In this document: in pieces, positions 3,263 through 44,547 of the stretch
Numbering within the stretch: the first letter of the stretch is position 1
Layout of the letters: each line of letters opens with the position of its first letter
NCBI RefSeq assembly: GCF_014218295.1
Contig: NZ_AP023287.1
Coordinates: 3,348,001 to 3,412,000 of the forward strand
From: Mycolicibacterium litorale
Lineage (GTDB): Bacteria; Actinomycetota; Actinomycetes; Mycobacteriales; Mycobacteriaceae
Length of the DNA: 64,000 nt
Reading direction: 5' to 3'
The notes under the pieces: model-generated
Seen by the model: only the letters and a program-made list of their open reading frames with translations
What the model was told of the DNA's origin: nothing
The model's database searches: none
Program-made: the position numbers and the translations under genes

Positions 3263-4699
3263 GTGGCAGATAAGACGGCCGACGACATCATCAAGCTGAT
3301 CAAGGACGAATCCGTCGAGTACGTCGACATTCGGTTCTGCGATCTGCCCGGTGTCGTCCAGCACTTCTCGATCCCGGCTGAGGCGTTCGACGAGAGCGTC
3401 TTCGAAGACGGTTTGGCGTTCGACGGCTCGTCTGTCCGCGGCTTCCAGTCGATTCACGAGTCCGACATGATGCTGCTGCCCGATCCCGAAACCGCGCGCA
3501 TCGACCCGTTCCGGCACGCCAAGACGCTCAACATGAACTTCTTCGTGCACGATCCGTTCACCCGCGAGGCCTACTCCCGCGACCCCCGCAACGTGGCCCG
3601 CAAGGCGGAGAACTACCTGATCAGCACCGGCATCGCCGACACCTGCTACTTCGGTGCCGAGGCCGAGTTCTACATCTTCGACTCGGTGAGCTTCGACTCG
3701 AAGATGAACGGCACCTTCTACGAGGTCGACTCCGAGTCGGGCTGGTGGAACAGCGGTGAGCCCTTCGAGGCGGACGGCAGCCCCAACCGCGGCTACAAGG
3801 TGCGCCCCAAGGGCGGCTACTTCCCCGTCGCGCCGTACGACCACTACGTCGACCTGCGCGACAAGATGGCGACGAACCTGATCAACGCGGGCTTCGTGCT
3901 GGAGCGCGGCCACCACGAGGTGGGCACCGCCGGCCAGGCCGAGATCAACTACAAGTTCAACACGCTGCTGCACGCGGCCGACGATGTGCTGCTGTTCAAG
4001 TACATCATCAAGAACACCGCGTGGCAGGAGGGCAAGACCGTCACGTTCATGCCCAAGCCGCTGTTCGGTGACAACGGCTCCGGTATGCACGCCCACCAGT
4101 CGCTGTGGAAGGACGGCCAGCCGCTGTTCCACGACGAGTCCGGCTACGCGGGCCTGTCAGACACGGCGCGCCACTACATCGGCGGCATCCTGCACCACGC
4201 CCCGTCGCTGCTGGCGTTCACCAACCCGACGGTGAATTCCTACAAGCGTCTGGTGCCGGGCTACGAGGCCCCGATCAACCTGGTCTACAGCCAGCGCAAC
4301 CGCTCGGCGTGTGTGCGTATCCCGATCACCGGCAACAACCCGAAGGCCAAGCGCCTCGAGTTCCGCTGCCCGGACAGCTCGGGCAACCCGTACCTGGCGT
4401 TCGCGGCGATGCTGATGGCCGGCATCGACGGCATCAAGCGCAAGATCGAACCGCAGGCTCCGGTCGACAAGGACCTCTACGAGCTGCCGCCGGACGAGGC
4501 CGCCAGCATCCCGCAGGCCCCGACCTCGCTGTCGGCGGTGATCGACCGCCTCGAAGAGGACCACGAGTACCTCACCGAGGGTGGCGTGTTCACCGAGGAC
4601 CTGATCGAGACCTGGATCTCCTACAAGCGGGAGAACGAGATCATGCCGATCCAGATCCGTCCTCACCCGTACGAGGTCGCGCTGTACTTCGACGTTTAA
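3263..4699 (+). CDS. glnA1: Glutamine synthetase type I (glnA1)
   Basis: 478-residue class I-beta glutamine synthetase, making glutamine from glutamate, ammonia and ATP as a dodecamer in the cytosol. Hallmarks are AFDGSS (52-57), EAEFYIFD, the ATP-loop region [12 protein letters not shown] (about 270-281), the NRSA loop, and the adenylylation loop DLYELPPDE with Tyr406, the residue modified by GlnE in M. tuberculosis. The GTG start at 3263 is chosen because AAAGGAGA lies 8 bases upstream and [13 protein letters not shown] is the usual N-terminus. A GlnR-type box lies upstream, so both transcriptional and adenylylation control are expected. The stop codon lies inside the first unit of a tandem repeat. 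Confidence 0.98.
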
Positions 4700-10560: not shown

Positions 10561-13516
10561 CGAACACCTTGCGCACCACGGTCTTCGCCCGCCGCGTCAC
10601 GCGCAGGTAGTTGTCGAGGAATTCCCCGCCGTCGTCGTTGTCCCAGCCGGCCGCGACCGCCACCGCGTTGAGCATCCGGCCCGGCCCGGGCAGCTGGTCG
10701 GTGGGCTTGCCCCGCACCAGTACCAACGCGTTGCGGGCCCGGGTCGCCGTCAGCCACGCCTGCCGCAGCAGGTCGACGTCGCCTTCGGCGATCAGCTCGG
10801 CGGCGCCGATCGCGTTGAGCGCCTCCAGCGTCGAGGTGCAGTGCAGGGCCGGCACCTTGTGCGCGAACCGCAACTGCATGAGCTGCACGGTCCATTCGAT
10901 GTCGGCCAGCCCGCCCCGGCCGAGTTTGGTGTGGGTGTTCGGGTCGGCGCCGCGCGGCAGCCGCTCGGCGTCGACGCGGGCCTTGATCCGCCGGATCTCC
11001 TGCACCGCTTGCGCCGACACGCCGCCCGCCGGGTAGCGCGTCTTGTCGATCATCAACAGGAACCGCTCGCCGAGTTCGAGGTCCCCGGCCACCCGGTGGG
11101 CGCGCAGCAGCGCCTGGACCTCCCAGGGCTGCGCCCACTGCGTGTAGTACGCCTCGTAGGAGGCCAGCGTCCGCACGAGCGGGCCGTTGCGGCCCTCGGG
11201 CCGCAGCCCGGTGTCGACCTCGAGCGGCGGATCGGCGCTCGGTGTGCCCAACAGCGCCCGCACCCGCTCGGCGATGCTGACGGCCCATTTCACCGCGGCG
11301 GATTCCTCGGCGCCATTGCAGGGTTCGCAGACGAACATCACGTCGGCGTCGGAGCCGTAGCCGAGTTCGCCGCCGCCGAGGCGTCCCATCCCGATCACCG
11401 CGAGGCGCGCCGGCGCGCCGCCGGCGGGTGCGTTCGCGCGCATCACCGCATCGAGCGCGGCCTGCAGCACCGCGACCCACAGCGCGGTCAGCGCGCGGCA
11501 CACCTCGGTCACCTCGAGCATGCCCAGCAGGTCGGCGGAGGCGATGCGGGCGAGTTCGCGGCGCCGCAGGGTGCGCGCGGCGGCGATGGCGCGCACCGGA
11601 TCGGCGTGCCTGCCCGCCGACGCCACCAGTCCGCGGGCCATCGCCTCGGGTGTGGTGTCGAGCAGTTTCGGGCCGTTGGGTCCGTCGGCGTAGAGCTGGA
11701 TGACCTCCGGTGCGCGCATCAGCAGGTCGGGTACGTACGCCGACGTGCCGAGCACCCGCATCAGCCGTTTCGCGACGGCGCCCTCGTCGCGCAGCGTGCC
11801 CAGGTACCACCGCTGTTCGGCGAGCGCCTCGCTGATCCGGCGGTAGGACAGCAGCCCGGCGTCGGGGTCGGGGGTGTCCGACAGCCAGTCCAGCAGGGTG
11901 GGCAGCAGCACGCGCTGTACACGTCCGCGGCGTCCGCCCTCTCCGGTCAGCGCGGCCAGGTGGGTCAGCGCGCTCTGCGGACCCTCGTAACCCAGTGCCG
12001 CGAGCTGCCTTTCGGCGGCCTCGGCGCTCATCCCGGGTGCGATGCCGAGCGGGGAATGCCCGACCGACTCCAGCAGCGGCTGGTAGAACAGCTTGGCGTG
12101 CAGCCGCGACACCCGCAGGCTCTGCCGCTTGAGTTCTTCGCGCAGCACGCCGAGCGCGTCGCGCTGCCCGTCGGGGCGCACGTGCGCGGCGCGGGCCAGC
12201 CAGCGCAGCGCCTCGTCGTCGTGCTCGTCGGGCAGCATGTGGGTGCGCTTGAGCCGCTGCAGCTGGAGCCGGTGTTCGAGCAGCCGCAGGAATTCGTAGG
12301 AGGCGGTCATGTTGGCGGCGTCGTCGCGGCCGATGTACCCGCCGGCCCCGAGTGCGGCCAGCGCGTCGACGGTGGACGCCACGTGCAGCGATTCGTCGTT
12401 GCGGCCGTGCACGAGTTGCAGCAGCTGCACCGCGAACTCCACGTCACGCAGGCCACCGGTGCCCAGTTTCAACTCGCGTGCCCGCACCCCGGCGGGCACC
12501 AGTTCCTCCACCCGGCGCCGCATCGCCTGCACCTCGGGGACGAAATCCTCACGCTCACAGGCGGTCCACACCATCGGCGCCAGCGCCTCGATGTAGTCGC
12601 GGCCCAGTTCGGCGTCACCGGCCGCGGGCCGAGCCTTCATCAGCGCCTGGAACTCCCACGTCTTGGCCCAGCGCTGGTAGTAGGCGACGTGCGATTCCAG
12701 CGTACGGACCAGCTGACCGTGTTTGCCCTCCGGCCGCAGCGCCGCGTCGACCTCGAAGAACGCGTCGGCGGCGAACCGCATCATCTCCCCGGCCACCCGG
12801 GTGGTGGTCGCGTCGGCCGGGTCGGCGACGAAGATGACGTCGACGTCGCTGACGTAGTTCAGTTCGCGCGCACCGCATTTGCCCATCGCCACGACGGCGA
12901 GGCGGGGCCGCTCCCCGTCCCCGCACACCGACCGCATCGCCACCTCGAGCGCACTGGCGAGTGCGGCGTCGGCCAGATCCGACAGGTGCCTGCCCACCGT
13001 CGGGAACGGCAGCACCGGTTCGTTCTCCACCGTGGGTGCGGTGTCGAGGGCGGCCAGGATCAGCAGCCGGTCACGGTAGAGCTTGCGCAGCGGCAGCATC
13101 GCGGCCGCCGCGTCGGCGGCGGATTCGGCGAGCGCGACGAACTCCTCGCGCAGCGCCTCGGCGGCAGGCAACTCCACTCTGCCGGCGAGCAGGCGCCACG
13201 ATTCGGGATGGGCGACGACGTGGTCGCCGAGCGCCAGCGACGAGCCCAGCACCGCGAACAGCCGGCCGCGCAACGGTTTGTCGGTCAGCAGGGACTGGTT
13301 GAGTTCGTCCCAGCCGTCCCCTAGCGCGTCGGCCAGACGCACCATGGTGTGCAGCGCACTGTCGGCGTCCGGCGCCCGCGACAGCGACCACAGCAGTTCG
13401 ACGTGACGGTCGGTGTTCCAGCCGAGCCGGTCCAGGTGCGCGGGGGCCTGCTTCTCCACCAGCCCCAGGCGCCCGACGCTGGGCAGTCTGGGGCGCTCGG
13501 TCGAAGGTCTCGCCAC
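10553..13516 (-). CDS. glnE: Glutamine synthetase adenylyltransferase/adenylyl-removing enzyme
   Basis: 987-residue GlnE. It has two nucleotidyltransferase domains, each with the expected motif: [18 protein letters not shown] in the N-terminal (adenylyl-removing) half and [21 protein letters not shown] in the C-terminal (adenylylating) half. Each is followed by a helical PII-uridylyltransferase-like bundle. It controls GlnA1 activity by modifying the Tyr406 loop. The GTG start at 13516 is supported by a TAACGT hexamer seven bases upstream. It lies between glnA2 and a thioesterase gene; in M. tuberculosis glnE lies directly after glnA1, so about 4.7 kb has been inserted between the two here. 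Confidence 0.97.
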
Positions 13517-37422: not shown

Positions 37423-38106
37423 ATGTTCACCTCGACCGAAGGCCACACCGATTCAGCAGTATCGATCGTCATCGTCGATCGACAGGCCGTGGTCCATGCG
37501 GGCATCGAACACTGGCTCGTCGGTAGCACGCCACCGGTCAAGATCGTCGGACACTACTCGCATCCGGCGGAGTTCCTCTCGGCCTACCCCGCGGCCGACC
37601 CCACCGTCGATGTCGTGTTGCTCGCCCTCAAGTACGACGACCAGGGGCCCGCGTTCGAGGCCCTGCGGTCGATCTGCCGTGGCGGGCATCGGGTGATCGT
37701 GTACTCCTACCTGGCCACCGACGAAGTGATCCTGACCTGCCTGGACGAGGGCGCACTCGCATTCGTCGCGAAATCCGAGAGCGGCAATCACCTTCGTGAC
37801 GCGATCTATGCGGCGAAAACGAACACCCCGTTCGTCGCCCCGCGAATGGCCCGAGCGCTCCTCAACGACAAGACCGGCGGCAGGCCTCATCTGACCAAGC
37901 GGGAGCGGGAGGTCCTCGTCGCGTGGTTCCAGACCGAGAACAAAGACATCGTCGGCCGGCGACTGTTCATCGAACCCTCGACCGTGCGCACTCATCTTCA
38001 GCGGGCGCGGGCGAAGTACGCCGCGGTGGGCCGGCCCGCACCGACGAAGGCCGCGCTCATCGCCAGGGCGATCCAGGACGGGATCCTCAGCGTCGACGAC
38101 CTGTGA
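37423..38106 (+). CDS. Orphan LuxR/NarL-type regulator with a degenerate receiver domain
   Basis: About 227 residues. The N-terminal half has the receiver fold (SIVIVDRQAVVHAGIEHWL, DVVLLALKYDD, VIVYSYLATDEV, ALAFVAKSE) but the phospho-acceptor Asp is replaced by Ala68 (LLAL) and the acidic pair is D19-R20. Only the Lys of FVAKS is kept, so phosphorylation by a kinase is unlikely. The C-terminal LuxR helix-turn-helix is intact (LTKREREVLVAWFQ, FIEPSTVRTHLQRARAKY). No histidine kinase is adjacent. Start is uncertain: ATG 37423 has GGGGG upstream, ATG 37402 is an alternative. First gene of the polysaccharide island on the same strand. Confidence 0.85.
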   Translation: MFTSTEGHTDSAVSIVIVDRQAVVHAGIEHWLVGSTPPVKIVGHYSHPAEFLSAYPAADPTVDVVLLALKYDDQGPAFEALRSICRGGHRVIVYSYLATDEVILTCLDEGALAFVAKSESGNHLRDAIYAAKTNTPFVAPRMARALLNDKTGGRPHLTKREREVLVAWFQTENKDIVGRRLFIEPSTVRTHLQRARAKYAAVGRPAPTKAALIARAIQDGILSVDDL

Positions 38107-38407
38107 CCACCGCACCGGCCTCAGCGATCGCGCGGCCGCGCACATCTGCGTACACCCCCGCCCACCCGCAACGGCGGCAAACCGAATGTCGGTCCGCGCC
38201 TTGTCTACGGGCCCGTCCGCCGATCGGGTGACGGCGGTGTCGCTTGATCGAACGAAACTGCGTATGGCCTGGTCAAAGCCTGTCGAATCGTTTGCCAAAC
38301 ATTCGCTGAGAAGTGCAGACTTCCCCTACCGCTCACCCGCGGGACATCCATAGCAAACCAGAGACAGCTCATCTCACGATCCCTGCTGCGCCGAGAGGGG
38401 TACTCCC
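38107..38407. other. 301-bp gap between the LuxR regulator and the secreted protein gene
   Basis: No coding or RNA feature is recognised. The second half is less GC-rich and probably carries the promoter of the gene at 38408; I could not pick a convincing -35/-10 pair. A good ribosome site (GAGAGGGG) lies just before the ATG. Confidence 0.4.
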
Positions 38408-39337
38408 ATGCTGCACCGCGCAGATACGTCAGGCGGGCAGACCACCGCCCGCGCCGTCGGCGCCGCCATCTGTGCGGGGGTACTCGCGCTGGGCGCCTCG
38501 CTCTATCCGCTGCCCGGCGGATCACAGCTGCTCGACCTCTTCCCCGCCGAGGAGGGAGACCCCGATTCGCTCGCGACGGCGCCGACCGAGCCCGTCGCCT
38601 TCCGAGTCGCGGACAACGAAATCCTCGACGAAACCGGCGAATTCGAGCTGGCTTCGGCTTTGCTTCCTCTGGTGCACTACGACATCGGCATCCTCGCCGA
38701 GATCGCCGCACTGCCGCCGTCGGCACTGCGCGAGTTGGTGCGGACCTACGGATTGCCGAATCTGGCGCTCGCGCTGGACGCCCTGATCCACGGCTACCCG
38801 AGCGGCGGGTGGGTCGGCGAATGGGCAGCCCCACAGCCGAATCCGGCCACGGGCCTGTTGCCCGGCCTGCTGATGGTGCTCGACTTCCTGTGTCCGGTGG
38901 TCCGGGCCGTGGCCCCCGCACCTCCGCCGGCACCCGCAGAACCCGTCGTCACGCCGGTGGTGCGGGAGGCGTCGCCGGCCCCGGCACCCGACCCGGAATT
39001 CGACCCACTGCCCGTCGCGGTCCAATCCTTCACGGTGCTCACCGCGCCGGCCGATCCGCCGGCTCTCGAACCGGTGGTTTCCCCGCCACCGACGCCTTCC
39101 GCGGAACCTGTCGCAGCCCCGACATCGGAGGCGGCGCCGCCCACGGAGGAGGAGAACAGCGAGGCCGTCGAGGAGTTCGGCGAGCTTCCCGATCTCGTGA
39201 CGTCGACCTCGGAGCCCGGTACCGAAGAACCCGAGGATCCGGGCCCCGCGGAGAAGACACCTGATCCGGAACCGCAACAGGACACCACCCACGACGACGA
39301 CAGCGGCGGTGACACCGGTGACGGACCGCAGACCTGA
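38408..39337 (+). CDS. Secreted or surface Pro/Glu/Ala-rich protein, function unknown
   Basis: 309 residues. A hydrophobic segment at about 15-33 (VGAAICAGVLALGASLYPLP) looks like a signal sequence or anchor. A short folded-looking region follows (about 60-150: FELASALLPLVHYDIGILAE then PPSALRELVRTYGLPNLALAL). The rest is low-complexity Pro/Ala/Glu with many acidic residues and ends in Asp/Gly-rich repeats (HDDDSGGDTGDGPQT). I do not recognise a family. Strong GAGGGG ribosome site. It lies between the LuxR regulator and the GlmS paralog on the same strand, so it may be a cell-wall-associated component of the polysaccharide system; this is inference from position only. Confidence 0.75.
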   Translation: MLHRADTSGGQTTARAVGAAICAGVLALGASLYPLPGGSQLLDLFPAEEGDPDSLATAPTEPVAFRVADNEILDETGEFELASALLPLVHYDIGILAEIAALPPSALRELVRTYGLPNLALALDALIHGYPSGGWVGEWAAPQPNPATGLLPGLLMVLDFLCPVVRAVAPAPPPAPAEPVVTPVVREASPAPAPDPEFDPLPVAVQSFTVLTAPADPPALEPVVSPPPTPSAEPVAAPTSEAAPPTEEENSEAVEEFGELPDLVTSTSEPGTEEPEDPGPAEKTPDPEPQQDTTHDDDSGGDTGDGPQT

Positions 39338-39365
39338 GCACCACCGAACACGCAAGGGGGACAAA

Positions 39366-39410
39366 GTGACTCATCAGAGCACGCCCGACGCCGGGATTCG
39401 AGCCCGGTGA
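39366..39410 (+). CDS. 14-codon leader ORF translationally coupled to the GlmS paralog
   Basis: AAGGGGG five bases upstream is the only strong ribosome site in front of the GlmS gene, and it is placed for the GTG at 39366. That frame encodes VTHQSTPDAGIRAR and stops at TGA 39408-39410, which shares its A with the GlmS ATG (TGATG). The GlmS ATG has no ribosome site of its own and sits behind a CCGGG/CCCGG hairpin (39392-39408 region), so translation of the leader probably opens it. Confidence 0.5.
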   Translation: MTHQSTPDAGIRAR

Positions 39411-41191
39411 TGTGCGGCATCATCGCGTGCCGGACCCGGGAACCGGCGATCGGCTACCTTCTCACCGCGCTAGGCCGGCTCGAGTACCGCGGCTACGACT
39501 CGGTGGGCGTCGCGGTACGCACCACCGGCGGCGACATCGCCCGGCTGCGCACCGTCGGACGAATCGGGACGCTCGAACACCGGTTCCGGCAGTGGGCCGG
39601 ACCCGTCCTCGACGGGGCGGGCATCGGCCACACCCGCTGGGCGACGCACGGTCCGGTGACCGAGGCGAACGCGCATCCGCACAACGACTGTCCGGGCCGG
39701 ATCAGCGTTGTCCACAACGGCACCATCGAGAACGCCGATCGGCTCCGCGACGTGCTGCGCGCACAGGGGCACCGTTTCACCTCTACCGTCGACAGCGAAG
39801 TGCTGAGCCACCTGATCGAAGACGCGTCGCAGACCACGCCGGACCTCTGCGAGGCCGTCCGCCAGGCACTCGACGCGGTCGAGGGATCATGGGCTCTCGC
39901 GGTACTCGAACGCGGCAGCGGGCGAATCGTGGTGGCCGCGGACGGGTCACCGCTGATCGTCGCGCACACCGCGCGCGGCGACTTCGCGGCGAGCGACATC
40001 GCCGCCATCGCCGACTGGGTCGAGGAGTTCCAGGTCCTCGACGACGGCGAGGTGATCGATCTGTCCGCCGCGCACCGGTCCGTCGACGAGGATCGGCCGT
40101 CGCCGACCATGGTGCGGTGCATCTGGCACAGCGCGGACACCGACCTGAACGGTTACGCCGACCACATGGCCAAAGAGATCGACGAACAACCCGCGGTGGC
40201 CGCCCGGGTGATCGACGAGCTGGGCGGCGGCGTGGCCGACGGCAGTCTGTGGACCGGGCTGGGGCTGGACCGGTTCGACCGGTTGCAGGTGATCGCCTGC
40301 GGCACCTCGTTGAACGCCGGCATGGTCATCGGCAACACGCTGCATCAGCTGGCCGGCCTGCCGGTGACGCGTTGCGTGGCCAGCGAAGCGGGGATGGACG
40401 TCCCGGAACCCGGCACCCTGTGCCTGGCGATCAGCCAGTCCGGGGAGACCGCCGACGTCCTGAACGCCGTCAGTGCGCGGGTGGCCGAGCGCTGCCCGAT
40501 CCTGGCCGTCACCAACAGTTCGCACTCCACGCTGGCCCGGCGCGCCGACGGTGTGGTGTCGTGCTCCGCCGGACCCGAGATCGGCGTCGCCGCCACCAAG
40601 ACCTTCGTCTGCCAGATCATCGCCGGAGTGGCGGTGACGGTATCGGCACTGGCCGCGACGGGCCGGATCTCGCGTTCCCATGCCGCCGCCCTCGTCGACG
40701 ACCTCCGGCGACTGCCGGACCAGCTGGCCGCCGCGGCGACCGTCGCCAAGAGCGTCGTCCCTCCCCTGGCCGACGAGTTTCTCGAGGCGACCGGATTCAT
40801 CTTCATCTCACGCGGCGCCGGCCTGCCGTACGCCGCCGAGGGCGCCCTCAAGCTCAAGGAGCTGACCTACCGGTGGGCGGAGCACTATCCCGCCGGCGAG
40901 CTCAAACACGGACCCCTGGCCCTCGTCGGCGACGGCACCCCGGTGGTCGTGGTGGACAACGGCGACCCCAGACTCGCCACGAACATCGCCGAGGTGCAGG
41001 CACGTGGCGGCCGGATCGTGCGCATCGGATCGATCGGCAGCAGTGTGCCGGTCATCGACGACGCACTCGGCCCCTGGGGGCCGATCCAGAGCGCGGTGGC
41101 GGTGCAGGTGCTGGCCCGCACCACCGCGCTCGCCCTGGGGCGCGACGTGGACAAGCCGCGCAACCTCGCGAAGTCCGTGACGGTGCAGTGA
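39410..41191 (+). CDS. Second glutamine-fructose-6-phosphate aminotransferase (GlmS paralog)
   Basis: 593 residues. It makes glucosamine-6-phosphate, the precursor of UDP-GlcNAc. The N-terminal class II glutaminase domain starts MCGIIACRT with the nucleophile Cys after Met, then LEYRGYDSVG, HTRWATHG and VVHNGTIEN. Two SIS isomerase domains follow (CGTSLNAGMVIGNTL, SQSGETADVLNAV, GVAATKTFVCQI, SRGAGLPYAAEGALKLKEL) and the C-terminus ends KPRNLAKSVTVQ. ATG 39410 is required to expose the catalytic Cys; a GTG at 39407 would not. Mycobacteria have a housekeeping glmS elsewhere, so this copy is probably dedicated to the adjoining polysaccharide synthase, whose ATG overlaps its stop. Confidence 0.93.
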   Translation: MCGIIACRTREPAIGYLLTALGRLEYRGYDSVGVAVRTTGGDIARLRTVGRIGTLEHRFRQWAGPVLDGAGIGHTRWATHGPVTEANAHPHNDCPGRISVVHNGTIENADRLRDVLRAQGHRFTSTVDSEVLSHLIEDASQTTPDLCEAVRQALDAVEGSWALAVLERGSGRIVVAADGSPLIVAHTARGDFAASDIAAIADWVEEFQVLDDGEVIDLSAAHRSVDEDRPSPTMVRCIWHSADTDLNGYADHMAKEIDEQPAVAARVIDELGGGVADGSLWTGLGLDRFDRLQVIACGTSLNAGMVIGNTLHQLAGLPVTRCVASEAGMDVPEPGTLCLAISQSGETADVLNAVSARVAERCPILAVTNSSHSTLARRADGVVSCSAGPEIGVAATKTFVCQIIAGVAVTVSALAATGRISRSHAAALVDDLRRLPDQLAAAATVAKSVVPPLADEFLEATGFIFISRGAGLPYAAEGALKLKELTYRWAEHYPAGELKHGPLALVGDGTPVVVVDNGDPRLATNIAEVQARGGRIVRIGSIGSSVPVIDDALGPWGPIQSAVAVQVLARTTALALGRDVDKPRNLAKSVTVQ

Positions 41192-43539
41192 TGCGCTCGG
41201 TCGTCGCCGGCCCCGCGATACGCACGCCCCGGCCCGGACCGGTCTTCTACGACAAGACGGGAAAACGGTTGTATTTCTTCGTCATCGGTGCCGTGGTGCT
41301 CGGTCTGGTCGTCGCCGTGCTGCCCGTGCGCGTCACCCCTCTGGTGTTCGATCCGCTGTGGACCGTGCCGACGAACGGGGATTCGGGGTTCCCCCGGCGG
41401 TTCCTCGCCGGCGCAGAGGGACACGATGTGCCGATACTCGGCAACGAGGACAACGAGGTGTTCGGCCGGGTGGTGCGGGTAGACCGACGTCGTCATCAAT
41501 GGAATCTGGTGGACCCGTTCACCAATGAGTTGTACCGGGTCGCCGACGACGACGACCGGGAGCGCATCGGTGAGAGCCCGTACGCGATCGACCACTACGG
41601 CCGTCCCGCCGACCGGCAGCTGATGCTCACCTTCGACGACGGGCCCGACGTCGAGTTCACCCAGCAGATTCTCGACATCCTGTCCCGGGAACACGTGCCC
41701 GCGACGTTCTTCGTTCTCGGCTCACAGGTCGTCCTGCACCCTGACGTCTTCCGGCGGATCGTCCGTGAAGGCCACATGGCGGGCAACCACACGATGTTCC
41801 ACGTCGATTTCGACGACCACACCGACTTCCGCAACCGTCAGGAGATCATCGCCGCCGACCGCGTCATGCGCGCCACCGCGGGATATGCCAGCCGGCTCTT
41901 CCGGATTCCCAGGGGCGACCCGGACAACAACGCGCTCGCGCTGCTGCAGTCACAGCAACTCGGCTATCTCCAGGTGGATCAGGACATCGACACCCTCGAC
42001 TGGAAGGTCGCCGGCGGAGGCGAACTGGCCGTTCCGGCCCTCGACGGGCGCGGCCACGTCGTCCTGCTGCACGACGGTGGCGGTGACCGTTCAGCGACCA
42101 TCCGGATGCTCGAGAAGTTCATCGCCGATGCCAAGAGCAAGGGCTACACGTTCACCACGCTGGCGCCGCTGCTCCCCGAGCGCTACGTACCCGCCCGCGA
42201 CGTCGAACCCTATCCCGCCGACACGGCCGTCTACCGGACGTTGCAGCTGGCGGAGGAAGCGCCGGGCACCCTGCTGGGGGTCCTGTTCTGGTTGGGAATG
42301 GGCTCGTTGACGGTGATGTCGCTGCTGTACCTCGTGTTGGCCCTCATCTGTCAGTACCGCCAGCGCCGCGTCCGCTGGGACGGCCTCGACGACAACCGGC
42401 TTCCCGCGGTGAGTGTGGTGCTGGCCGCCTACAACGAGCAGAACGTGATCGCGCGGACGCTGAGCGAACTGCGCCGAAGCGCATATCCGCCGGGCAGATT
42501 CGAAGTGGTCGCGGTCGACGACGGATCCACGGACGACACCCTGGCGATCCTGCACGAGGTGGCGGGTACCTGGCCGGGGTTGCGTGTGGTGCATCAGGTC
42601 AACAGCGGCAAATCGTCGGCGATCAACAACGGCATCAACCACGCGTCGCCGACGTCCACGGTGATCGTCACCATGGACGCCGACACGCTCTTCCGGCCCG
42701 ATACGGTCCGTAATCTGGCCCGCCACTTCGCGCGCAACACCCACGGCAAGCGGGTCGGCGCGGTCGCGGGACACATCAAGGTCGGCAATCGGCGCAATGT
42801 CGTAACCGCCTGGCAGAGCCTGGAATACATCTCCGGAATCTGCGTGACGCGGATGGCCGAGCGGCTGCTCAACGCGATCTCGATCGTGCCCGGCGCCTGC
42901 TCGGCATGGGATCGGACGGCGCTGGCGCAGATCGGCGGTTTCTGTGACGACACCATGGCCGAGGACTGCGATGCGACGCTGTCTCTGCAGCGGCGCGGCT
43001 ACCGGATCCTTCAGGAGAACGACGCCATCGCCGACACCGAGGCGCCGGAAACCCTTCGCGCCCTTGCCAAACAGCGCAAACGGTGGACGTACGGCAACAT
43101 CCAGGCGTTGTGGAAGCACCGCGACATGGTATTTCGCCCGCGCTACGGAGTGCTGGCGATGGTCACGATGCCCTATGCCGCGTTGTCGCTCCTGGTGCCG
43201 CTGTTGTTCATGCCGCTGACGATCGTGGCCGCCGCCATGAGCGTGGCGGCGGGGAACTGGCAGAGCATCGCCGTCTACGCGGGATTCGTCGCGGCACTGC
43301 ACATGATCATCTCGGTGACCGCCATCGCGATGGCCCGCGAGCGTCCGTGGCATCTGCTCGTGGTGCCGATCTACCGGGTGATCTACGAACCGCTGCGGGC
43401 CTACCTGCTCTACGCGTCGGCATACCGGGCCCTCAAGGGCACCGTCGTGGCGTGGGACAAGCTGGAACGCCGGAACACCGTCAGCGTGTTCGTCGAACCG
43501 CAGAGCCGTCGCACGCCGATGCTCGGCGCTCAGCAGTAG
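41191..43539 (+). CDS. Bifunctional polysaccharide deacetylase/family 2 glycosyltransferase (poly-GlcNAc synthase)
   Basis: 782 residues. TM1 (about 27-47) is followed by an extracytoplasmic NodB-type deacetylase (about 140-330): TFDDGPD (147-153), GNHTMFHVD, RIPRGDPDN and VVLLHDGGG. A second span (about 360-388) leads to a cytosolic processive GT2 domain: AAYNE, DDG (443-445), DAD (496-498), the TMAEDCDATL acidic motif and QRKRW (QxxRW, 628-632). C-terminal spans follow (about 655-730). Architecture and topology match a synthase that polymerises UDP-GlcNAc and deacetylates the exported chain, like Streptomyces MatB or IcaA plus IcaB. The start overlaps the GlmS stop by one base. Polymer linkage (beta-1,4 or beta-1,6) is not readable. 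Confidence 0.9.
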   Translation: MRSVVAGPAIRTPRPGPVFYDKTGKRLYFFVIGAVVLGLVVAVLPVRVTPLVFDPLWTVPTNGDSGFPRRFLAGAEGHDVPILGNEDNEVFGRVVRVDRRRHQWNLVDPFTNELYRVADDDDRERIGESPYAIDHYGRPADRQLMLTFDDGPDVEFTQQILDILSREHVPATFFVLGSQVVLHPDVFRRIVREGHMAGNHTMFHVDFDDHTDFRNRQEIIAADRVMRATAGYASRLFRIPRGDPDNNALALLQSQQLGYLQVDQDIDTLDWKVAGGGELAVPALDGRGHVVLLHDGGGDRSATIRMLEKFIADAKSKGYTFTTLAPLLPERYVPARDVEPYPADTAVYRTLQLAEEAPGTLLGVLFWLGMGSLTVMSLLYLVLALICQYRQRRVRWDGLDDNRLPAVSVVLAAYNEQNVIARTLSELRRSAYPPGRFEVVAVDDGSTDDTLAILHEVAGTWPGLRVVHQVNSGKSSAINNGINHASPTSTVIVTMDADTLFRPDTVRNLARHFARNTHGKRVGAVAGHIKVGNRRNVVTAWQSLEYISGICVTRMAERLLNAISIVPGACSAWDRTALAQIGGFCDDTMAEDCDATLSLQRRGYRILQENDAIADTEAPETLRALAKQRKRWTYGNIQALWKHRDMVFRPRYGVLAMVTMPYAALSLLVPLLFMPLTIVAAAMSVAAGNWQSIAVYAGFVAALHMIISVTAIAMARERPWHLLVVPIYRVIYEPLRAYLLYASAYRALKGTVVAWDKLERRNTVSVFVEPQSRRTPMLGAQQ

Positions 43540-44249
43540 AGGTTCCCGCCGGGGGGCACCCCCAGCAGCGCGCTGATGCGTTGGTAGGCCTCCACCCGGC
43601 TGCGTACCTGAGCGGGGTTGCCGCCGTCGCATTCGAGCACACCGTTGAACGCCCGGATGGTCTCGCCGAACCCGAGGCCGCGCACCATGGCTTCGTGGGG
43701 GGTCGCCGACGCCGCGGCTGCCTGGGTGTTCCAGAACCACAGGGCGGTCCGCCACGCCAGAACCTCGTCAGCGGCGACCAACTCGGGATCGGTGAGCAGA
43801 TCGGCGCCGAGCGCTTCGCCCGCGGCCAGGTAGTTGTAATTCCAGCTGAGCTGTCCCGGACCGCGACCGTAGTAGGCGTCCCGGCCCGCCGGACAGCCGA
43901 ACGGCAGGTCGGCGTCACAGTAGACCCGGCGCCGCTGGGGGCTCTCCTCGACGATGGTCAGCCCACCGGTCTCATGGGCGACGTTGCCGAAGAACGCGGC
44001 CGCTTCCCGGCGGCGCACCGTATCGTCGCCCGTGGCGGCGAAGCCGGGAAAGGACGGCAGGGCGGCGAGCAGGCCGTCGTAGCTGTAGAACGGGATCCGG
44101 TACGGGAAGGCCGCATCGAATTCCGCTCTGCTGACCACGAACCCGGCCGCGGGATCAGCGTCGGCCGGCGCGGACGCCGGTGTCGAGTTCACCCCGCATC
44201 CGACGACGGCCGCCATCGCCAGCCCGGCCGCCATCCGCACACCGCGCAT
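43530..44249 (-). CDS. GH19 chitinase-like lipoprotein
   Basis: 239 residues. A lipoprotein signal ends in AVVGC (Cys18). The GH19 core shows FPYRIPFYSYDGLLAALPSF, AAAFFGNVAHETGG with catalytic Glu93, CDADLPFGCPAG, YYGRGPGQLSWNYNY and ALWFWNT. GH19 enzymes cleave beta-1,4-GlcNAc polymers (chitin) and some act on peptidoglycan. ATG 44249 is chosen because AGGGGAGG lies about eight bases upstream; a GTG at 44258 is the alternative. The 3' end overlaps the synthase gene by 10 bases tail to tail. It may trim or release the polymer made by the neighbouring synthase; a role against fungal chitin is the alternative. Confidence 0.87.
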   Translation of the reverse strand: MRGVRMAAGLAMAAVVGCGVNSTPASAPADADPAAGFVVSRAEFDAAFPYRIPFYSYDGLLAALPSFPGFAATGDDTVRRREAAAFFGNVAHETGGLTIVEESPQRRRVYCDADLPFGCPAGRDAYYGRGPGQLSWNYNYLAAGEALGADLLTDPELVAADEVLAWRTALWFWNTQAAAASATPHEAMVRGLGFGETIRAFNGVLECDGGNPAQVRSRVEAYQRISALLGVPPGGNLYC

Positions 44250-44547
44250 CCCGAACACCTCCCCTTCTCCGCGGGGCCTGTACCCGAGTCTGACGGACCG
44301 CCGCGGCGCAGGAAGCGGTTTCGACGTAACCGCACTGCACAGCTATTTGCCTGCGGCAGAATGAATTTGAGTAGTGCAACAGTTCCACATTTCCGACGGC
44401 CAGACCTTCCCGCCCGTGGGTCGCAGAACGATAATCGATCGTGGCGACGAATGGCTGACTGCTCCGAGAAGCCACCCGAGTGCGACTTTCCGAAACGGCC
44501 ACGCCATCACGGCCACTTCATCGGAATCGCACGAAGGGCTACGAGTG
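44250..44547. other. Intergenic region between the GH19 gene and the NTF2-like gene
   Basis: About 300 bases with no gene. A GATAAT hexamer at 44430-44435 could be a -10 element for the downstream gene, but the facing -35 (TTCCCG, 17 bases upstream) is poor. Nothing else is recognised. Confidence 0.35.

Follow-up and report, generated by a model that had tools for sequence, protein, structure and literature searches.

What might a mycobacterium make with a glycan synthase, a second GlmS and a chitinase-type lipoprotein encoded side by side? The question arises in Mycolicibacterium litorale, whose genome (5.63 Mb) is a single contig, within a stretch of 64,000 nucleotides that was analysed as a whole and is called the window hereafter. 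Five genes, delimited from open reading frames and sequence, form an island at window positions 37423-44258, with cobD on one side and the ahpE side on the other, as also in three related genomes (G095, G429 and G524). A sequence-only reading had described this set as a second GlmS, a fusion of a NodB-type deacetylase with a GT2 glycosyltransferase, a GH19 lipoprotein, a Pro/Glu-rich protein and a regulator, and the open reading frames together with Pfam and NCBIfam searches bear it out (Table 1). The overlaps it had reported are exact on the sequence: the GlmS2 stop and the synthase start share one base (TGATG), and the ends of the synthase and GH19 genes share 10 bp, as they also do in the three syntenic relatives. 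The GH19 gene is indeed present on the minus strand, but it starts at 44258, the 44249 given earlier being a later ATG.

Table 1. Features of the island, in window positions, with the basis of each assignment
Feature	Position	Strand	Basis or remark
Orphan LuxR/NarL-type response regulator, 227 aa	37423..38106	+	Pfam GerE
Pro/Glu-rich protein, 309 aa	38408..39337	+	N-terminal half conserved, C-terminal half variable
GlmS2, glutamine-fructose-6-phosphate aminotransferase paralogue	39410..41191	+	NCBIfam glmS
CE4(NodB)-GT2 putative poly-GlcNAc synthase, 782 aa	41191..43539	+	Pfam, NCBIfam, motifs, tree
Synthase N-terminal segment: VF-D-TGKR motif, hydrophobic core (residues 28-46), further stretch	41191..41604	+	
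CE4 polysaccharide deacetylase domain, about residues 139-331	41605..42183	+	Pfam PF01522
GT2 glycosyltransferase domain, about residues 405-635	42403..43095	+	Pfam PF13641/PF00535
GH19 chitinase-type lipoprotein, 242 aa	43530..44258	-	Pfam GH19

The synthase scores 102 bits with Polysacc_deac_1 and 109 bits with the GT2 family. Its CE4 residues D149, D150, H200, H204, R238, P240, H294 and D295, as well as its GT2 residues D444, D496/D498, E591, D592, Q628, R629, R631 and W632, are invariant in all 11 aligned sequences (window included), so that both domains with their catalytic motifs stand in one protein, as in synthases of the MatB type. Hydrophobic cores, located by simple hydropathy only, lie at residues 28-46 and 368-386, with three more between 654 and 715, the first ahead of the CE4 domain, the second in the stretch that links it to GT2 and the others past GT2, and this MatB-type arrangement fits an external CE4 and an internal GT2 domain. 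The intact motifs and membrane topology claimed from the sequence were accordingly found again, the topology at the level of simple hydropathy. The AlphaFold model of the synthase is of low confidence (mean pLDDT 61). The genome contains seven CE4 matches and one CE4-GT2 match (E <= 1e-60).

The phylogeny of the synthase was inferred from 40 rows: the window, six mycobacterial sequences, 25 loci of the order sample (drawn from 59 non-window genomes), three plasmid sequences and five of the 45 loci L045-L089, whose remaining 40 were left out, most being near-copies and seven fragments or unread. An island clade of 11 rows separates from the 29 others (100/100, with long-branch warnings), and the island synthase falls outside the MatB-like clade, in a tree where MatB itself is not among the rows. 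The proposed likeness to MatB therefore stands for the two-domain architecture and fails for the clade, from which the island protein also differs by a fused N-terminal segment. Small proteins encoded immediately before several MatB-like synthases, and before a Streptomyces plasmid synthase, begin with VF-D-TGKR-like motifs; from this we infer that the segment is a MatA-like piece that became fused, in a comparison that does not include the MatA sequence itself. In L128, L149-L151, L153, L155, L158, L160, L161 and L193 the gene directly before a MatB-like synthase encodes a small protein that combines a VFxDxxGxR-like motif, a hydrophobic segment and a tail rich in Pro and Ser; these proteins possibly belong to the MatA family.

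The Streptomyces MatAB system of PNAG synthesis (PMC5972031) resembles the island in joining an external CE4 and an internal GT2 domain in one membrane protein. A small anchored protein upstream of the synthase occurs in several MatB-like loci and, by eye, in G435. The island differs in its synthase, which is 33-40% identical to the MatB-like sequences compared (a designation that is inferred, MatA and MatB not being among them), in the VF-D-TGKR anchor fused to the synthase N-terminus, in its GlmS paralogue and in its GH19 lipoprotein.

The GH19 protein scores 150 bits with Glyco_hydro_19 (PF00182), and its best PDB match is 2cjl, annotated as secreted chitinase (297 bits), against 32 bits for the endolysin 4ok7. 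Invariant in all six mycobacterial sequences are the lipobox Cys21, the Glu of the HET motif (E96) and, in the alignment column of E104, a further Glu; both catalytic Glu of GH19 chitinases are thus present, the second 8-9 residues after the first, as in the aligned chitinases. It is the single GH19 match of the genome (E <= 1e-20), and no GH18 match was found there at E <= 0.001. A GH19 tree of 38 rows (the window, five other mycobacterial sequences, 29 order loci from 51 non-window genomes and three plasmid sequences) splits the six mycobacterial proteins from the 32 others (98/93), with long-branch warnings, the long rows being G128 and G435. A loose lipobox pattern is present in six of these 32, each time as A-A/S-C, which looks like an ordinary signal-peptide end.

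Next, we examined how the genes are distributed within Mycobacterium. Synthase matches (E <= 1e-60) occur in seven of 396 genomes, the window and G095, G524, G429, G128, G435 and G539 (83, 82, 80, 68, 38 and 36% identity to the window, respectively), the last containing one internal stop codon. GH19 matches (E <= 1e-20) occur in six, exactly the synthase carriers minus G539. The expectation that the five-gene set recurs in other genomes held in this survey, all five genes being syntenic between cobD and ahpE in four of the seven synthase carriers (window, G095, G429 and G524). The co-occurrence of synthase and GH19 has a hypergeometric probability of 1.4e-12, a value that ignores relatedness and is to be read beside only three independent layouts.

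These layouts deserve closer description, since in each of them the GH19 gene adjoins a CE4-GT2 synthase (6/6), and the synthases belong to two clades. In the four island species GH19 is convergent with the synthase and overlaps it by 10 bp. In G128 the lipoprotein gene lies downstream on the same strand, overlapping the synthase end, and the pair occupies another chromosomal site, with cobD and ahpE absent from the 20 kb read. In G435 GH19 lies about 0.9 kb upstream on the same strand, with a small anchored protein (by eye) between the two; this synthase belongs to the other, MatB-like side of the tree although its GH19 groups with the mycobacterial ones. The G435 cassette of GH19, anchored protein and synthase is bracketed by two copies of about 230 bp (L144:8191-8420 and 12701-12930), made up of segments of 105, 100 and 25 bp that are 90-96% identical, at a spacing of 4509-4510; ungapped, only 134 of 230 positions are identical, because the spacing shifts by one base. 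The repeats look like the mark of an insertion, by which the cassette would have been gained together. The near-duplicate also overlaps the start of a membrane-protein gene. Since GH19 stands beside the synthase in 6/6 cases and beside synthases of two clades, it is the chitinase lipoprotein, and not the whole island, that keeps company with the synthase. On this count the conserved unit is the synthase plus the chitinase, while GlmS2, the regulator and the Pro/Glu-rich protein accompany the pair in the four island species only.

The gene order common to these four species is regulator, Pro/Glu-rich protein, glmS2, an epimerase gene or its shortened copy (lacking in the window), synthase and convergent GH19; genes in the fetched loci were called with a small purpose-built caller for which ten window genes served as training set. 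In comparison with the three syntenic relatives, synthase, GH19 and GlmS2 have dN/dS values of 0.16-0.21. Since these are like those of the flanking cobD (0.17-0.20), we regard the island genes as more than a product of chance; the second control, surf1, is lower (0.10-0.14). Judged from its sequence, the island is real, conserved and rare. An empty site is represented by the synthase-less G013, where the gap between ahpE and cobD measures 496 bp; this is a single case, the other cobD loci spanning only 1.5 kb.

Several observations concern the surroundings and the variable part of the island. In G002 (cobD 84% identical) transposase-like and other foreign-looking genes lie on the same side of cobD (L238:3160-5241, by eye), and this side may be an insertion hot spot. 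In G429 two copies of the SnoaL-like gene that adjoins the island enclose a glyoxalase-like gene (L142:6635-7960), and a glyoxalase-family gene also occupies the island-adjoining place in IS-1496. Epimerases of the SDR type usually carry a Tyr-x-x-x-Lys motif. The epimerase-like SDR between glmS2 and the synthase of the three relatives (L142:11334-12263, L043:7334-7933 and L143:10627-11229) has Ser in place of the Tyr in G429. It measures 309 aa in G429 and about 200 aa in IS-1496 (G095) and IS-1742 (G524) and is absent from the window, a series that looks like step-wise loss. Reaching 309 aa in G429 only, it was rejected as a fixed part of the island. The one Rfam match is sub-threshold and was taken as chance.

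GlmS2 reaches 544 bits with the NCBIfam glmS model (cut-off 418) and has the N-terminal Cys of a GlmS behind its start (MCGII, Met-Cys). The genome encodes one other full-length GlmS, 39% identical to it. Among 20 genomes searched, GlmS2 is confined to the window and the three further carriers of the island (77-79%); G128, G435 and G539 have ordinary GlmS only.

All four island copies of the regulator have Ala where the phospho-acceptor Asp would stand, and so lack what a phosphorylation-controlled regulator requires. Of five aligned paralogues, three retain the Asp (the one from the same genome, G034 and G013) and two do not (G011 and G080). The paralogue of the same genome (60%; C1:229800-230447, L237:7795-8526), with its phospho-Asp, has long genes in its vicinity whose products look, by eye, like kinase-like membrane proteins. 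Members of the family occur in 44 of 148 mycobacteria, some of them adjoining histidine-kinase-like genes (by eye), and several other mycobacteria have matches to the DNA-binding part alone. With this spread, and with no synthase seen in the seven other family neighbourhoods read, the regulator was discarded as an island marker. The response regulator near the G168 synthase, which adjoins a kinase-like gene (by eye), was likewise dropped as coincidence.

The Pro/Glu-rich protein has no family match in Pfam or NCBIfam. Its residues 151-309 include 36 Pro and 19 Glu, and it is only 30-34% identical to its counterparts in the three relatives (dN/dS 0.61-0.90). Its occurrence was read within the fetched loci only. 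A hydrophobic N-terminal stretch, seen by eye, suggests that it is probably exported or anchored.

Where do relatives of the pair occur beyond the genus? Of the 298 genomes in the order sample, 60 give a CE4-GT2 match and 52 a GH19 match. Adjacency of the two was seen in none of the 16 non-window genomes with both: in six they lie on the same contig at least 0.6 Mb apart, in ten on different contigs. The GH19 link thus holds only within Mycobacterium. In a class-wide search at E <= 1e-115 the window stood alone among 256 genomes.

Chitinases of another family appear beside some related synthases. A Kocuria rosea plasmid (NZ_CP127859.1) shares with the island a related synthase (53% identical) and, directly downstream, a convergent gene annotated as chitinase, with a lipobox by eye. 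This enzyme is of GH18 type instead (22.9 bits, under the Pfam cut-off, with SIVDFDIE at the catalytic place), and neither GlmS nor a LuxR-type regulator is annotated in the 9-kb flanks, whose gene table is incomplete. In family f16 a GH18 gene lies immediately downstream of the synthase, in the same orientation, in 4/4 loci (L124, L125, L126 and L127), with the motif DG[IV]D[IV]DYE in all four and 101 bits in the one scanned. All four f16 loci have a membrane protein after GH18, an acyltransferase-3 in the one scanned, which recalls the icaC orthologue next to matB. In G168 a lipoprotein-like gene upstream of the synthase (L123:7140-7985) has a weak, sub-threshold match to a double-psi beta-barrel (DPBB) and is perhaps another wall-active partner.

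Relatives in Verrucomicrobia and Deinococcus carry GH18, CE4 and GT2 in a single chain (3/3 scanned), an architecture already listed for Acetivibrio in PMC3413522. Like the island, these proteins unite hydrolase-type, deacetylase and synthase domains, and six of the verrucomicrobial ones begin with a VF-D-TGKR motif; unlike the island with its separate GH19 lipoprotein, they have GH18 fused and non-canonical. The canonical GH18 motif is present in none of 39 fused domains, the place reading like GVVVDW[EQ] where seen, and we therefore rejected them as proof of chitinase activity.

In the scheme that we propose, gene set, motifs, lipobox, conservation and synthase-chitinase linkage are read from sequence, while substrate, glycosidic linkage, topology, order of events and regulation are predicted from them. 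GlmS2 would raise the supply of UDP-GlcNAc as precursor; at the inner membrane face, the GT2 domain would polymerise GlcNAc and extrude the chain; the CE4 domain, outside the membrane, would remove part of the acetyl groups; and the GH19 lipoprotein, tethered outside, would cut the emerging chain for length control, release or clearing, comparable to the hydrolase domain of PgaB. BcsZ, AlgL and PelA are further locus-encoded hydrolases that can be likened to the PgaB precedent. PgaB itself combines deacetylase and hydrolase and cleaves the polymer made by its own locus (PMC5933820). That the island is so closely tied to a chitinase points to a GlcNAc chain that may be chitin-like. Since the hydrolase paired with the synthase is a chitinase-type GH19 here and, in some relatives, a GH18 that carries its catalytic motif, a beta-1,4 (chitin- or chitosan-like) chain is favoured over beta-1,6 (PNAG); we consider it at least as likely as PNAG and put beta-1,4 slightly ahead. 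To the reading as a whole, a synthase-dependent exopolysaccharide locus with GlmS2 supply, GT2 polymerisation, CE4 deacetylation, GH19 cutting and a beta-1,4 rather than beta-1,6 chain, we assign a probability of roughly 55%. The poly-GlcNAc synthesis island of the sequence-only reading is likewise supported by the genes, motifs, overlaps and co-occurrence found.

The reading closest to this one is that the synthase makes beta-1,6 PNAG, like MatB and the Ica/Pga systems, and that GH19 acts elsewhere, for instance by opening peptidoglycan for chain exit. The synthase has indeed the two-domain architecture of MatB, and antibody and dispersin tests identify the MatB product as PNAG (PMC5972031); the GH19 family, moreover, consists partly of endolysins (PMC8547705). 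PgaC/IcaA is also the closest curated GT2 family. The island domain scores 178 bits on that model (TIGR03937), far under the cut-off of 422, and does not qualify as an equivalog; on the NodC model (TIGR04242) its 71 bits against a cut-off of 550 do not make it a NodC either. E. coli PgaC, for reference, scores 648 on PgaC/IcaA and 73 on NodC, and Rhizobium NodC 716 on NodC and 91 on PgaC/IcaA. That the GT2 domain appears nearer to PgaC/IcaA than to NodC counts against a beta-1,4 chain, and G435, pairing GH19 with a synthase of the MatB side, sharpens this conflict. Nevertheless, the GH19 is of chitinase type (297 bits to the chitinase against 32 to endolysin 4ok7) and GH18 proteins recur next to some related synthases, and we hold the PNAG reading to be rather unlikely. 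The coupling of synthase and chitinase has exceptions of its own: G539 has a synthase without GH19, and among 28 actinobacterial loci (GH19-linked ones excluded) 23 have no protein with a GH18 motif within three genes, while five do.

Could the product be no polymer at all? The rhizobial set counts nodM, as its GlmS-type part, beside nodB and nodC. A GlmS paralogue, a NodB-type deacetylase and a GT2 recall it, a plasmid search with the synthase matches nodBC loci, and a chitinase could cut the chain to oligomers, so that short, (deacetylated) chitooligosaccharide signals would arise in a distant analogue of NodM-NodB-NodC. Such signalling is improbable, as no acyltransferase family is found in the five island proteins with Pfam and NCBIfam and the NodC score is as low as given above. 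Least probable of all, and in our view hardly tenable, is that synthase and chitinase are unrelated neighbours, GH19 serving antifungal defence or chitin feeding. GH19 homologues from other families of actinobacteria are mostly extended at the N-terminus (by eye) by a part that looks like a carbohydrate-binding module as in secreted chitin degraders, and they do not lie next to synthases. The mycobacterial GH19s are short lipoproteins, and all six found in 396 genomes adjoin a synthase; moreover, general chitin feeding is unlikely because the window genome is without a GH18 match.

With the PgaABCD and IcaADBC systems the exopolysaccharide locus proposed here shares a GT2, a CE4-type deacetylase and, where PgaB is present, a hydrolase directed at the chain that the system itself makes. 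It differs in that its hydrolase is a chitinase-type GH19 and not GH153, that deacetylase and GT2 form one protein, and that this synthase misses the PgaC/IcaA equivalog cut-off. In gene content, what sets the island apart from known CE4-GT2 exopolysaccharide systems is a GlmS of its own and, more than anything else, the recurrent tethered chitinase. More tentatively, and a little short of even odds, we suggest a coat made by the mycobacteria themselves, of beta-1,4 GlcNAc that the synthase itself deacetylates and a tethered chitinase edits. The hydrolase slot would be filled by unrelated families, GH19 in mycobacteria and GH18 in Kocuria and f16, and the hydrolase family would foretell the linkage made by the CE4-GT2 synthase.

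In the mostly non-subscription literature on mycobacterial poly-GlcNAc, chitin, GH19 loci or CE4-GT2 architectures, as far as its accessible text goes, we recognised no description of the island. The bacterial chitin synthases of eukaryotic origin known in Gammaproteobacteria and a few others (PMC5122149) are of a different kind. According to PMC12167362, mycobacterial cultures have been found to contain PNAG, whose machinery is uncharacterised. For a GlcNAc polymer in the few species that carry it, the island is a concrete candidate; with a synthase in seven of 396 genomes, it is too rare to explain PNAG across the genus. If its product is indeed chitin- or chitosan-like, mycobacteria would contain chitinous material of their own making, and the partner hydrolase would provide a simple rule for predicting the linkage made by uncharacterised CE4-GT2 synthases.
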